Source of the DNA: Candidatus Neoruminococcus faecicola
GTDB taxonomy: Bacteria > Bacillota > Clostridia > Oscillospirales > Ruminococcaceae
Reading direction: 5' to 3'
NCBI GenBank assembly: GCA_904398325.1
Contig: CAJFPC010000035.1
Location: 1 to 37,560, forward strand
DNA: 37,560 nt
The position numbers were made by a program, and so were the translations under genes. This document shows, in pieces, positions 33,021-37,560 of the stretch. Within the stretch, counting starts at the first letter, position 1, and each line of letters starts with the position of its first letter. The notes under the pieces were generated by a model. That model searched no databases. It was not told the DNA's origin and worked only from the letters and a program-made list of their open reading frames with translations.

Positions 33021-33612
33021 GGTGCTCTGTGTCACCAGCCGGTCCCTCTGCCGGGAGGATTTTTTCGTCCGGCTGGAAAAAATCGCCCGCGCCGGCTGTG
33101 CCGGCATCCTGCTGCGGGAAAAGGATCTCTCCCCCCGGCAGTACGGCGAGCTGGCAGAACGGGTTCTATCCCTCTGCCGGGCGCATCAGGTGCCCTGCAT
33201 CCTGCACAGCCACGCCGAAATCGCCGCAGAGCTGGGCGCGCCGGCCCTGCATCTGCCGCTGCCGCTTCTGGAGGCGCTGCCCGCTCCGCTCCGAGGGAAA
33301 TTTTCCTCGCTGGGGGCCTCCTGCCACAGCGTCGAGGATGCCCTGCGGGCCCAGGCGCTGGGCTGCACCTATCTGACCGCCGGGCACATCTTCGCCACCG
33401 ACTGCAAAAAAGGCCTCGCCCCCCGCGGGCTGGAATTCCTGCGCGAGGTCTGCCAGGCGGTGGAAATCCCGGTCTGGGCCATCGGCGGCATCCGGCCGGA
33501 AAACCTGCCCCAGGTGCTGGCAGCCGGGGCCGCAGGCGGCTGCGTCATGAGCGGCCTTATGGCCTGCCCCGACCCGGCGGCCGCGCTGGCAGCCTTTGCC
33601 GCCGCCGAATAA
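33013..33612 (+). CDS. tenI: Thiazole tautomerase TenI-like (ThiE superfamily)
   Basis: A 199-residue TIM-barrel protein. The segment AGHIFATDCKKGLAPRGL matches Bacillus TenI, including the histidine used for aromatising the thiazole, where ThiE has a GPxFxTxTK loop. The N-terminal LLREKDLSPRQY and the phosphate loop AIGGIRPEN are shared with ThiE. I therefore prefer TenI; a ThiE or bifunctional role remains possible, and only an assay would decide. It overlaps thiH by 8 bases and ends the operon. thiC, thiD and a clear thiE are absent. Confidence 0.78.
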   Translation: MSKVLCVTSRSLCREDFFVRLEKIARAGCAGILLREKDLSPRQYGELAERVLSLCRAHQVPCILHSHAEIAAELGAPALHLPLPLLEALPAPLRGKFSSLGASCHSVEDALRAQALGCTYLTAGHIFATDCKKGLAPRGLEFLREVCQAVEIPVWAIGGIRPENLPQVLAAGAAGGCVMSGLMACPDPAAALAAFAAAE

Positions 33613-33624
33613 CCTTCCCGCACA

Positions 33625-33665
33625 CCCCCGTCAGAGGCGAAAAGCCCTGGCGGGGGATTTCTTTT
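33625..33665 (+). terminator. Terminator of the thiamin operon
   Basis: CCCCCG/CGGGGG stem with bulged inner CAG/CTG and GGC/GCC pairs, then ATTTCTTTT. Confidence 0.8.
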
Positions 33666-33682
33666 GCAGCGGCGCGCGGCGC

Positions 33683-33710
33683 TTTACAAAATCCCCTCAG
33701 ATGTTATACT
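33683..33710 (+). promoter_or_regulatory. Promoter of the sigma-CAP cassette
   Basis: TTTACA, 16 bases, TG-extended TATACT. Start near 33717, giving a leader of about 100 bases. Confidence 0.75.
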
Positions 33711-33734
33711 AAAAGGCAGAAAGTTCCAGCCGCG

Positions 33735-33764
33735 CACGGCGCCGGGATATTTTCCGGCGCCGTG
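33735..33764 (+). other. Leader hairpin of the sigma-CAP cassette
   Basis: A perfect 11-bp stem CACGGCGCCGG/CCGGCGCCGTG with an 8-base loop, about 18 bases into the predicted transcript. It is not followed by a T-run, so it is more likely a stabilising or regulatory element than a terminator. Confidence 0.6.
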
Positions 33765-33815
33765 TAAAACCTTCTCCCGCTGTTTTGTGTCTTATGGGCA
33801 GAAGGGGGCGAACAT

Positions 33816-33944
33816 ATGAAATCCACACGGCCTTTGTGCGACCTCATCCGGCATGCATACGAAATCGGCCCGGAGATGAGGGCGGTCCTGGATGCGCTGC
33901 TGAACAGAATTTTAAGCCTGCTCAAAAATAAGGAGGAACCGTAA
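33816..33944 (+). CDS. Small protein (42 residues) coupled to the sigma factor
   Basis: A short gene. The protein starts MKSTRPLCDLIRHAYEIGPE and ends LSLLKNKEEP; residues 19-38 would form an amphipathic helix (MRAVLDALLNRILSLL). AGAAGGGGG precedes the ATG. Its TAA overlaps the sigma start (TAATG), and the sigma factor's own ribosome site lies inside this gene, so the two are translated together. No family recognised. It might be a small regulator or simply a translational enhancer. Confidence 0.7.
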   Translation: MKSTRPLCDLIRHAYEIGPEMRAVLDALLNRILSLLKNKEEP

Positions 33945-35737
33945 TGTCGGAAGGATTTGCAAAACTGATTGAGGCGGCACGCCAGGGCGACAACGACGCC
34001 TGCACCCAGCTTTATCAGCTGACCATCCGCAGCGCGCTGGGGCGGGCGCGCTCGCTGGTGCGCTCGGAACAGGATGCGCTGGATATTGTGCAGGACAGCT
34101 ACCTGCAGGCCTTCCGCTCGCTGGAAAAACTGGAAAAGCCGGAGAGCTTCCCCGCCTGGCTCAACCGCATTGTCACCAACCGCTGCAAAAACCTGCTCGG
34201 CCGCTCCAAGGCGCTGCGGTATGAGACCTCCCTCACCGGCGAGGAGGGGGAGGAATTTGAAAAAGAGGATGAGAGCATTCAGTTTAAACCGGATGACTCT
34301 TTGGATTATGAGGAGAACAAGCGGCTGATCCGCGAGATTGTGGACAGCCTCCCCGACGAGCAGCGCGCCTGTGTGCTGCTGCATTATTTTCAGGAGCTTA
34401 AGCTGGCCGACATCGCCAATCTGCTGGAAATCCCGGAAAACACGGTGAAAAGCCGCCTTTATTACGCCAAGAAAAAAATCGAGAAGCAGGTGCAGGAGCT
34501 GGAGCGCAAGGGCACCAAGCTCTTTGCGTTCCCGGTGTTCCCCTTCCTGCGCTGGGCAATGGAGGAAAGCACCACACAGCTGGCTGCACAGAGCGCTTCC
34601 CAGCTGCTGCCCGCCATTACCGCCTCGCTGGGAGCCGGGGCCGCCTCCGCCGGGACGGGGGCCGCTGCCGGCTCCGCCCTAGGCAGCGCAGCCGGCGCAG
34701 CGGCAAAAGGGGGGCTTTTTGCCTCGCTGCAGGCCAAGGCTGCCGTCGGGCTGGTAGCGGCAGCCGTGGCGGCGGGGGGCGCCGCCGTCGCTTTGCACCA
34801 GGCCCAGGAGCCAGAGCCGGAACCTGCCGCCAGCGTACCCGCTGTTGTAGAAGTGGAGGAGCCGCTCCCCGCCCTGACGCAGGCGGAGCTGGAGGAGCTG
34901 CTGGCGCAGCTCCAGGCCAAGCGGGAGGAAGTATCCCTGCCGCCGCTGGAGGTGGACCCGCAGCTGGCCGAATTGGCCGGCCTGCGGGCCGAAGAGCTGG
35001 CCGAACGCTTTGACAGCGCCCGCCCGGACGGAGCCTCCTTTGAGACGCTTTTTGCAGAAAACGGCCTGGGGACCCCGCCCGAAGCGGCCCAGGCGATCCT
35101 GCGGCTGGAAGAAGATGGCATTGCCGAGGCCCTGGAAGAATGGGTAGAGGCCCAGCCGCCGGAGCTTTTTTCGCAGCAGGCCCAGCGGATCGGCCTGGGA
35201 ACCTATTATCAGGAGGAACCCGCTGCCAATTATCTGGTTGCCCTGACCTGTGCAGAGCCGCAGCCGGAACCCGAACCCGAGCCGGTGCCCGAACCTGAGC
35301 CGGTGCCCGTACCTGAGCCGGTGCCCGAGCCGGAACCCGAGCCCGAGCCGGAACCGGAAGCGCCGGCACCCGAAGGGCCGGAAGGGCTGGTGGCGCTGAT
35401 CAATGCCGCCCGCCGGGAACGGGGCCTGAACACTCTGATTTTACAGCCAGCACTGATGGAATATGGGGAATATTCAGCTATGGGCACCGCCGGGGACGGC
35501 ACTTATCCCCGGCAGAGCGCGGAGGAATTTTTAAATGAACGCGGCTATTACTTCGATGAGATCAAGGGCTGGGGATTTGTCGGTTATACGGATGCCTCCG
35601 CTGTGATGGAAATCATCCTGCAAACGCCCGACAGCCCCTTCCTGCAGGCGGGTGATTACACCGACATCGGCGTAGGCTGCTATGACAACGGCGACCGGCT
35701 CTATTGGGAGGCCAATGTGGCTAAATCTACAGACTAG
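33944..35737 (+). CDS. ECF-type sigma factor fused to a membrane segment and CAP-like domains
   Basis: A 597-residue protein. Sigma region 2 spans about 17-85 (ALDIVQDSYLQAFRSLEKL, FPAWLNRIVTNRCKN) and region 4 about 127-182 (DIANLLEIPENTVKSRLYYA). A Gly/Ala-rich stretch leads to one hydrophobic segment at about 265-285, then a Glu/Pro linker. Outside it lie a CAP/SCP-like domain (about 335-436; RPDGASFETLFAENG, LGTYY), a second Glu/Pro spacer, and a second CAP-like domain (about 480-595). The histidine/glutamate residues of active CAP sites are missing. Translation stops at TAG; the same frame continues into a third such domain. No separate anti-sigma gene is present, so the fused outside part may be the sensor. 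Confidence 0.85.
   Translation: MSEGFAKLIEAARQGDNDACTQLYQLTIRSALGRARSLVRSEQDALDIVQDSYLQAFRSLEKLEKPESFPAWLNRIVTNRCKNLLGRSKALRYETSLTGEEGEEFEKEDESIQFKPDDSLDYEENKRLIREIVDSLPDEQRACVLLHYFQELKLADIANLLEIPENTVKSRLYYAKKKIEKQVQELERKGTKLFAFPVFPFLRWAMEESTTQLAAQSASQLLPAITASLGAGAASAGTGAAAGSALGSAAGAAAKGGLFASLQAKAAVGLVAAAVAAGGAAVALHQAQEPEPEPAASVPAVVEVEEPLPALTQAELEELLAQLQAKREEVSLPPLEVDPQLAELAGLRAEELAERFDSARPDGASFETLFAENGLGTPPEAAQAILRLEEDGIAEALEEWVEAQPPELFSQQAQRIGLGTYYQEEPAANYLVALTCAEPQPEPEPEPVPEPEPVPVPEPVPEPEPEPEPEPEAPAPEGPEGLVALINAARRERGLNTLILQPALMEYGEYSAMGTAGDGTYPRQSAEEFLNERGYYFDEIKGWGFVGYTDASAVMEIILQTPDSPFLQAGDYTDIGVGCYDNGDRLYWEANVAKSTD
35258..35356 (+). repeat. Glu-Pro/Val-Pro linker repeat
   Basis: A minisatellite-like run of near-identical hexamers (GAGCCG/GTGCCC/GAACCC) encoding 33 residues of alternating Pro with Glu or Val (one Gln), a stiff spacer in many surface proteins. 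It is prone to length change by slippage in steps of six bases. Confidence 0.85.
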
Positions 35738-36160
35738 GAGGATATCCCCCAGGCGCTGGGCCCGGATGAGTTTGGGGAGCTGCAGCAGCTCTTGGAGGGA
35801 ATCAACAGGCTTCGGGCAGACAACGGCCTTTCCGCCTTGGCAAGCAACAGCACCCTGGTGAAAGCAGCCAAACGGTATGTGCTGGCCACTGCCGGTGAAG
35901 GGCGTTATCCTGCCGGCGGGGTTGAGCATTATCTGGAAGAAAACGGGTATTCTGCCGCCCAGGTTAAAAACAGCGGTTATGGAAATTTTGAATTCGCAAA
36001 GGATGTTCTGCAAAATCTCGGGAACAGCAGTTTTGTCACGGAGAGCGGCTTTGACCAAATTGGGATAGCTTATCTGGAGCATGACAGCCAGAATTATTGG
36101 GCCATCGTTGCAGCAGAATCCGCTGAATCATTTGATGATGAAAGGAAGGGTAACGAATGA
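35738..36160 (+). pseudogene. In-frame continuation of the sigma protein: third CAP-like domain after an amber codon
   Basis: Directly after TAG (35735-35737) the same frame runs for 140 codons to TGA. It encodes LQQLLEGINRLRADNGLSAL, GEGRYPAGGVEHYLEENGYS and a YWAIVAAES end that align part by part with the preceding CAP-like domain. AGGAGG overlaps the amber codon but no ATG, GTG or TTG follows at a usable in-frame distance; the first is TTG at 35792 with a poor ribosome site. The frame's TGA overlaps the lipoprotein start, which makes sense only if ribosomes arrive here. It is a nonsense-interrupted gene or a read-through product (738 residues). Confidence 0.7.
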
Positions 36161-37245
36161 AAAAGAACAACAAGAGGATGCTGGTCGCCATGCTGGCTAT
36201 GGCAATGGCGCTGAGCATGACCGCTTGTTCCGAGGAACCGGCCGAGGATACCAGTTCCAGCGAGCCTGAGAGCAGCGTGAGCGAGCAGGTCAGCGAACCG
36301 GAAACATCTGATCTGGAAGTAGAGAACGACACCAGCAGCGATACCGAGGCAGAAAGTTCTGATCCGGCTGCCAATAACACCAGCAGCAGCGCCGCCGATA
36401 CTGGCAGCTCTACCGCCAGCCAGCCTGCAGCCGATCAGAGCAGCAGCCAGGCACAGCAGCCGGCTACCAGCAGCCAGACGGATACTTCCAGCCAAACTCA
36501 GGCTCAGGCGCCTACTACTGCCCAGACCAGCAATACCAGCAGTGGCAAAGGACCGCTTGCCAACTACACAGTGAGCGTTCAGGATAACAGTACCCCGGCG
36601 GTTTCCGTTTCTGGAAGAAGTATTGATGGTAAGAGCGGCTATTACTTCTATTCTGCGGATGGCGACATCCTCGGCTATATTGCCAGCAACGTCGTGTCTC
36701 AGATCAACCGTGATTACAAGATGATCCAGAAGACGGACGAAGAGCATAAGGCCTGGTATGTAGAGCAGTTCAATGTGCTGCGCGGCCTGGAGGGCGGGAG
36801 TGGTTCTGTCACTTCTAACTCCTCCAGTTCCACTACATCCTCTGAATCTAGTTCCAAGGAGGTTGATATTGAGGAATACCGCAAAGAGGTATTTCGCCTT
36901 GTGAATGACGAAAGAAAGAAAGCTGGAGTAGCTGAATGTGTTTCTGATAGTACCGCTATGGAATATGCCCAAATTAGAGCAGAAGAACTCGCTGAAAAGT
37001 TTTCTCACGAAAGCCCAGATGGGTCCATTATGGAGTATAGCCATTATACTTTCGCTGAAAATATTGCTAAGGGACAGGATACACCTGAAGAAGTTGTCAG
37101 TGATTGGATGGCATCTTCTGGGCACAGAGCAGCTATGCTGTCCGATTATTCTAATTATGGCAACTGTCTTGGCGTAGGCGTTTATGAAGAAGACGGAACT
37201 TTTTATTGGGTTCTTGAATTTATTCTTTGGGATGCGAATGCTTAA
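36157..37245 (+). CDS. CAP/SCP-domain lipoprotein
   Basis: A 362-residue secreted protein. Signal peptide with lipobox LSMTAC (lipidated C24), then a long Ser/Thr/Gln/Glu linker (about 25-132), a small unassigned domain (about 135-210; YTVSVQDNSTPAVSVSG), a second Ser-rich stretch, and a complete CAP domain (about 238-358) with FSHESPDG, YTFAENIAKG and SGHRAAML, which supply the His/Glu residues of the CAP cavity. CAP proteins of bacteria are often cell-wall or sporulation linked, with unknown chemistry. Its ATG overlaps the preceding TGA. The CAP-coding end is much AT-richer than the sigma gene. Confidence 0.9.
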   Translation: MKKNNKRMLVAMLAMAMALSMTACSEEPAEDTSSSEPESSVSEQVSEPETSDLEVENDTSSDTEAESSDPAANNTSSSAADTGSSTASQPAADQSSSQAQQPATSSQTDTSSQTQAQAPTTAQTSNTSSGKGPLANYTVSVQDNSTPAVSVSGRSIDGKSGYYFYSADGDILGYIASNVVSQINRDYKMIQKTDEEHKAWYVEQFNVLRGLEGGSGSVTSNSSSSTTSSESSSKEVDIEEYRKEVFRLVNDERKKAGVAECVSDSTAMEYAQIRAEELAEKFSHESPDGSIMEYSHYTFAENIAKGQDTPEEVVSDWMASSGHRAAMLSDYSNYGNCLGVGVYEEDGTFYWVLEFILWDANA

Positions 37246-37262
37246 CTTAAATGGAATTAGCC

Positions 37263-37297
37263 TAAAAGGGTGCTTTTTGTAAAGTACCCTTTTTATA
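37263..37297 (+). terminator. Terminator of the sigma-CAP cassette
   Basis: Stem AAAGGGT-g-CTTT/AAAG-t-ACCCTTT followed by TTTTATATTT. Confidence 0.8.
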
Positions 37298-37336
37298 TTT
37301 ACAACAGTTTAAGGATTTTGCAAGGAGTGATGTAAT

Positions 37337-37429
37337 ATGATCTGGTGTCGCCCACCACCACGGTGGGATGTTTGTGAAGGGGGTTCCCTACTGGGAACCC
37401 TCTTCTTTTTTTATGCCCAAACACAATAG
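37337..37429 (+). CDS. Possible 30-residue leader peptide
   Basis: AAGGAG nine bases before an ATG opens a frame starting MIWCRPPPRWDVCEGGSLL and ending FFFYAQTQ. It has a Pro-Pro-Pro run, a known ribosome-stalling motif, and its 3' half is an intrinsic terminator. A second good ribosome site and ATG follow 15 bases later. It could be a leader controlling the next gene, or simply a frame crossing a structured leader RNA. No promoter was identified in 37298-37336. Confidence 0.4.
   Translation: MIWCRPPPRWDVCEGGSLLGTLFFFYAQTQ
37351..37412 (+). terminator. Two hairpins, the second an intrinsic terminator
   Basis: CCCACC-ACCAC-GGTGGG (37351-37367), then a 13-bp stem GAAGGGGGTTCCC-TACT-GGGAACCCTCTTC (37376-37405, one G-U pair) followed by seven T residues. 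The loop CACCACCACGG is identical in 11 bases to that of the thi leader. Confidence 0.8.
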
Positions 37430-37443
37430 AGAGGAGCGGTAAC

Positions 37444-37560
37444 ATGGCGAGAAAGCCAAAAACAGCAAGCAGGGCGCTTGCTGCCATGATGACATTTTGT
37501 AACCGCCAGCACAAAGAAAAAGCCGATGAAACAAAGTTTCATCGGCTTTTGGGTGGTTGC
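37444..37560 (+). CDS. Unidentified reading frame, cut by the window edge
   Basis: ATG with GAGAGGAG 10 bases upstream opens a basic frame (MARKPKTASRALAAMMTFCN, then RQHKEKADETKFH) that is still open after 39 codons. Inside it lie two perfect hairpins: AGCAAGC/GCTTGCT (37467-37485) and a 15-bp stem AAAAGCCGATGAAAC with its complement (37518-37550). The second looks like a terminator, which would contradict a long coding gene. No family recognised. Confidence 0.4.
   Translation, partial: MARKPKTASRALAAMMTFCNRQHKEKADETKFHRLLGGC

Follow-up and report, generated by a model that had tools for sequence, protein, structure and literature searches.

The 37,560-nucleotide stretch of Candidatus Neoruminococcus faecicola DNA analysed here (the window) contains, towards its end, a gene for an ECF sigma factor that stops at an amber codon and whose reading frame then continues, open, as far as the next gene. 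The features of this region, all on the forward strand, are as follows.

33683-33710, forward: candidate operon promoter, a promoter-like TTTACA-16-TATACT with TG before the -10 element (a consensus match only)
33816-33944, forward: small ORF of 42 aa, MKSTRPLCDLIRHAYEIGPEMRAVLDALLNRILSLLKNKEEP, its TAA overlapping the ATG of the sigma factor gene (TAATG)
33944-35737, forward: ECF sigma factor ORF, 597 aa, from the ATG at 33944 to the amber codon
33944-34510, forward: sigma-70 regions 2 and 4 (residues ~5-189; PF04542, PF08281)
34739-34795, forward: hydrophobic segment, residues 266-284, probably a single transmembrane (TM) helix (Kyte-Doolittle 2.17 over 19 residues)
34922-35209, forward: CAP-like domain 1, residues 327-422, a CAP match lacking the canonical CAP His/Glu
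35249-35377, forward: Pro/Glu-rich linker
35378-35734, forward: CAP-like domain 2, ending at the stop
35735-35737, forward: in-frame TAG (amber) at the boundary of CAP domains 2 and 3, overlapping the AGGAGG of 35736-35741
35738-36160, forward: post-amber open frame of 140 codons plus TGA, holding CAP-like domain 3 at 35795-36100
35792-35794, forward: TTG, the sole in-frame ATG/GTG/TTG ahead of the CAP core, with no good Shine-Dalgarno sequence (SD) and giving no signal peptide if used
36157-37245, forward: CAP (YkwD-like) lipoprotein gene, 362 aa, lipobox ..SMTAC, with its own SD AAAGGAAGG at 36141-36149
37264-37293, forward: terminator-like hairpin at the operon end

The N-terminal part of the sigma protein matches PF04542 (E=5e-12) and PF08281 (E=2e-14) in Pfam, the combination of regions 2 and 4 without region 3 that makes it an ECF sigma factor. 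From the predicted topology it is probable that the protein is anchored in the membrane, with the domains that follow the helix lying outside the cytoplasm. An Ala/Gly-rich low-complexity stretch (34541-34738) precedes the helix; relatives at loci L075-L078 of the genomes compared also have one. Domain 1 is a CAP match in its own right, and domain 2 can be identified solely by its resemblance to domain 3 and to further CAP domains, so that the initial annotation was fair in calling the domain beyond the amber codon the third of its kind. In sequence and predicted fold these domains resemble bacterial CAP/SCP proteins (PF00188; YkwD family), but canonical CAP domains have the His and Glu residues of the SH, ENxA and GHR motifs. 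In our alignment these motifs are absent from all three sigma-fused copies, the conserved cavity His/Glu residues being missing from domain 3 as from the others, and are retained in the adjoining lipoprotein. Since these conserved positions are lost, the sigma-fused copies are probably binding or sensing modules.

Consensus matching finds three promoter-like sites in the region against 1.7 expected. The TAATG overlap between the 42-aa ORF and the sigma factor gene makes translational coupling of the two possible; no relatives of the small ORF were found in the related loci compared. The ribosome-binding sequence of the lipoprotein gene, AAAGGAAGG, stands 7 nt ahead of its ATG. A paralogue of this lipoprotein lies elsewhere in the genome (L074, 2421-3533; 47% identity over 232 aa, with a common middle domain), and the ORFs listed at that locus place no sigma factor beside it.

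Sequence and ORFs together confirm that the sigma protein ends at the TAG of 35735-35737, that the same frame runs on for 140 codons to the TGA of 36158-36160, and that this TGA overlaps the ATG at 36157 of the next gene in an ATGA (36157-36160). The remaining two forward frames of the post-TAG segment contain 2 and 12 stops, and the openness of the third is not due to chance, since shuffling its bases leaves the segment open in 0.075% of trials. The initial annotation took the ATGA as a sign of coupling, with translation meant to reach 36160. The overlap does suggest that translation once extended so far, but it is no proof that it does so at present: the lipoprotein gene has its own SD, and the overlap therefore needs no ribosomes arriving from upstream.

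The segment beyond the TAG matches the CAP family PF00188 with E=2.7e-5 and 25.4 bits, the curated cut-off being 21.1 bits. Its proposed paralogy with the preceding domain is borne out by 27% identity over 116 residues (E=6e-14). In a genome-wide CAP profile search domain 3 scores 25.3 bits against 18.9 for domain 1. An AlphaFold2 model of domain 3 built from 8 sequences has a pLDDT of 81 and a pTM of 0.76, and nearly all of its top Foldseek matches among solved structures are CAP proteins, the best being BB0689, SAV1118, GAPR-1 and the PrgA CAP domain. With its frame intact, a CAP fold predicted and a CAP profile score above that of domain 1, domain 3 has not decayed; going by the model its structure is intact, and it shows no greater degeneration than the translated domains beside it.

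The machinery for decoding UAG appears conventional. RF1 is present and uninterrupted, with 544 bits against a cut-off of 423. No PylS exceeded the model cut-off in the genome, and the weak matches seen are probably related synthetases, since all 14 control genomes give matches too, one of the 14 above the cut-off. Rfam finds 32 tRNAs, and ARAGORN reads the anticodons with a single exception, an incomplete contig-end gene that is, by its alignment, apparently Ser(CGA). None of the 32 has the CUA anticodon (CTA in the gene) required to read UAG in this 92%-complete assembly, and the suppressor tRNA genes that the initial annotation had proposed looking for are thus not among them. TAG is the rarest terminator, ending 19 of the 324 called genes with a stop (~6%) in a 400-kb sample, and the 20 other listed genes of the window neither end in TAG nor contain an internal stop. 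In Candidatus Neoruminococcus faecicola, TAG thus serves as an ordinary stop that is seldom used. A genome-wide reassignment of UAG, or a Pyl-type decoding of it, runs counter to each of these results, namely the intact RF1, the PylS matches below the cut-off and like those of the controls, the tRNA set and the genes that TAG terminates. Both were rejected, their chance of explaining the locus being practically negligible. At position 3590 of L110 another TAG precedes a long open frame; neither side has a Pfam match, and the frame is probably antisense. A codon-usage scan of 400 kb for further split genes had no discriminating power, as antisense frames mimic coding in this genome.

Three explanations of the amber codon had been offered at the outset: a recent nonsense mutation, read-through, and termination with reinitiation. 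In the last, ribosomes would terminate at the TAG and begin again shortly after it, so that domain 3 is produced as a protein of its own. The AGGAGG that overlaps the TAG is indeed there, and an ORF of 122 aa from the TTG at 35792 would hold nearly all of the CAP core. The AGGAGG is not distinctive, however, as it is also found at 34242 and 35211 within the same sigma factor gene, and no in-frame start lies 5-10 nt past it, where the codons at usable spacing are CCC and CAG; ATC follows at 2 nt and CTG at 14 nt. The spacing thus contradicts reinitiation. The TTG lies 50 nt on and has no good SD, and its product, having neither signal peptide nor TM helix, would leave the CAP domain in the cytoplasm. 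Furthermore, reinitiation there would leave untranslated 17 codons ahead of the TTG that are coding-like. They score 0.59 bits per codon under a genome codon model; real genes average 0.36, and none of 6720 shifted-frame samples reached 0.59. Because this score is above the real-gene mean and unmatched in shifted frames, the 17-codon stretch looks formerly or currently translated, and it points to an ancestral uninterrupted frame. We consider reinitiation very improbable. Functional read-through would have a minority of ribosomes pass the TAG by near-cognate decoding, so that a three-CAP isoform is made beside the two-CAP one. In its favour, an intact domain 3 follows in the same frame, the TGA closing that frame overlaps the start of the next gene, and the position of the TAG between domains would allow both products to fold; the exact coincidence of the TAG with the domain boundary could also suit a programmed two-isoform design. 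Bacterial in-frame stops under purifying selection have been reported (Belinky et al. 2021, PMC7918605). The present case is like those in that a single TAG splits an intact frame, the lead example there also being an in-frame TAG, but those cases are defined by orthologues that share the stop, whereas this one is known from one genome. Set against read-through are the intact RF1 and the lack of a UAG-reading tRNA and of PylS, so that nothing in the decoding machinery gives it specific support. RNA 3' of the TAG folds no better than shuffled sequence (z = 0.69, 1.61 and 0.45), and an Rfam search of 33600-37560 yields no RNA element. Near-cognate decoding may give basal read-through of the UAG, but functional read-through seems to us improbable. 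Still more doubtful is that the amber codon is retained for a purpose, with a low level of read-through giving a small fraction of molecules a third outside CAP domain and decoding efficiency setting the isoforms.

The nonsense mutation is the best supported of the three. We put at roughly 70% the probability that a recent nonsense change, fixed or polymorphic, struck the boundary of domains 2 and 3 and left a two-domain membrane-anchored sigma factor. The ancestral locus would have encoded one protein of ~738 residues, comprising a cytoplasmic ECF sigma factor, one TM helix and three degenerate CAP-like domains outside, with the CAP lipoprotein next in the operon. A single-base nonsense change would then have created the amber codon between domains 2 and 3. 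Translation presumably now terminates there, yielding a membrane-anchored sigma factor with two CAP-like domains. This product probably still folds and may still work; domain 3 would be a relic that is no longer translated. The downstream segment is homologous, in frame and lacking start signals of its own, as fits the fragment of a nonsense-split gene (a pseudogene fragment). This order of events is read from the repeat structure rather than from comparison.

The apparent age of the stop bears on the choice. Neutral evolution was simulated from the present sequence, assuming a ti:tv ratio of 2 and 0.1 indels per substitution. At 1% divergence, 58% of runs left the segment without stops or indels; the figure was 33% at 2%, 6% at 5% and 0.4% at 10%. 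If the segment is untranslated, the stop is accordingly young; the change may instead be polymorphic in the population. In-frame stops that persist briefly as polymorphisms have been described in bacteria (PMC7918605), and by analogy the present TAG fits that pattern. On its own the simulation does not tell a young lesion apart from a read-through product that is being maintained, or from a sequence error. The latter, an error of sequencing, consensus or assembly at a real sense codon in an uninterrupted protein, would explain the whole anomaly with one base and would suit the complete lack of decay in the downstream frame; the fragmentation of the assembly (94 contigs, 92% completeness) is consistent with metagenome assembly. 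We nevertheless think it unlikely: internal stops are absent from the other listed genes of the window, and a short-read consensus of normal depth seldom contains single-base substitution errors.

With a single genome representing the genus, no stop-free allele was found. A scan of a collection of genome contigs with the sigma protein gave distant sigma factors only, and a scan of viral contigs gave no relative. Among 398 genomes of the family the best sigma relatives reach up to 45% identity, confined to the sigma and TM part, and those examined by Pfam carry unrelated ectodomains (LRR_5, DUF2963 or unassigned). When domains 2 and 3 were searched against the family and the order, no further fusion of a sigma factor to CAP domains came up, whether with the stop or without it. 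Apart from this genome, five had matches at E<=1e-4; the matches from two of them were inspected completely and are lone secreted CAP proteins. If the explanation is the ordinary one, the locus is a clean example of a fresh truncation at a domain boundary, and it cautions against inferring read-through for such frames when a single genome is at hand. Were the amber codon functional, it would give a sensor isoform controlled by decoding, which would be unusual in bacteria.

ECF sigma factors with membrane-spanning C-terminal extensions are known from ECF48, ECF52, ECF53 and ECF243/IutY (reviewed in PMC8999054). Regulated proteolysis has been proposed for ECF52 and shown for ECF243 (PMC8999054). 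The present protein resembles them in the order of its parts, with sigma 2/4 domains first, then a TM helix, a stretch rich in Pro and a domain outside the cytoplasm, but differs in having no zinc-finger anti-sigma domain by Pfam and in an ectodomain made of tandem CAP-like domains. By analogy with ECF52 and ECF243, the probable role of the ectodomain is to sense an external ligand; the sigma part may be freed during activation, probably through regulated proteolysis of the kind proposed or shown for those two groups.

The nearest relatives of the CAP-fused sigma factor come from the same taxonomic family and are sigma factors whose ectodomains are LRR_5, DUF2963 or unassigned. Such swapping of ectodomains (CAP, LRR, DUF2963 and others) on a conserved sigma-TM chassis should be useful for studying signal sensing. 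Members of this ECF family at loci L004-L006, L075-L078, L080 and L082 share a motif after region 4, G-[TI]-K-L-Y/F...P-F. They often have an Ala/Gly/Thr-rich stretch and a TM segment, and their unrelated ectodomains (LRR_5, DUF2963/RHS-like and others) are swapped between genera.
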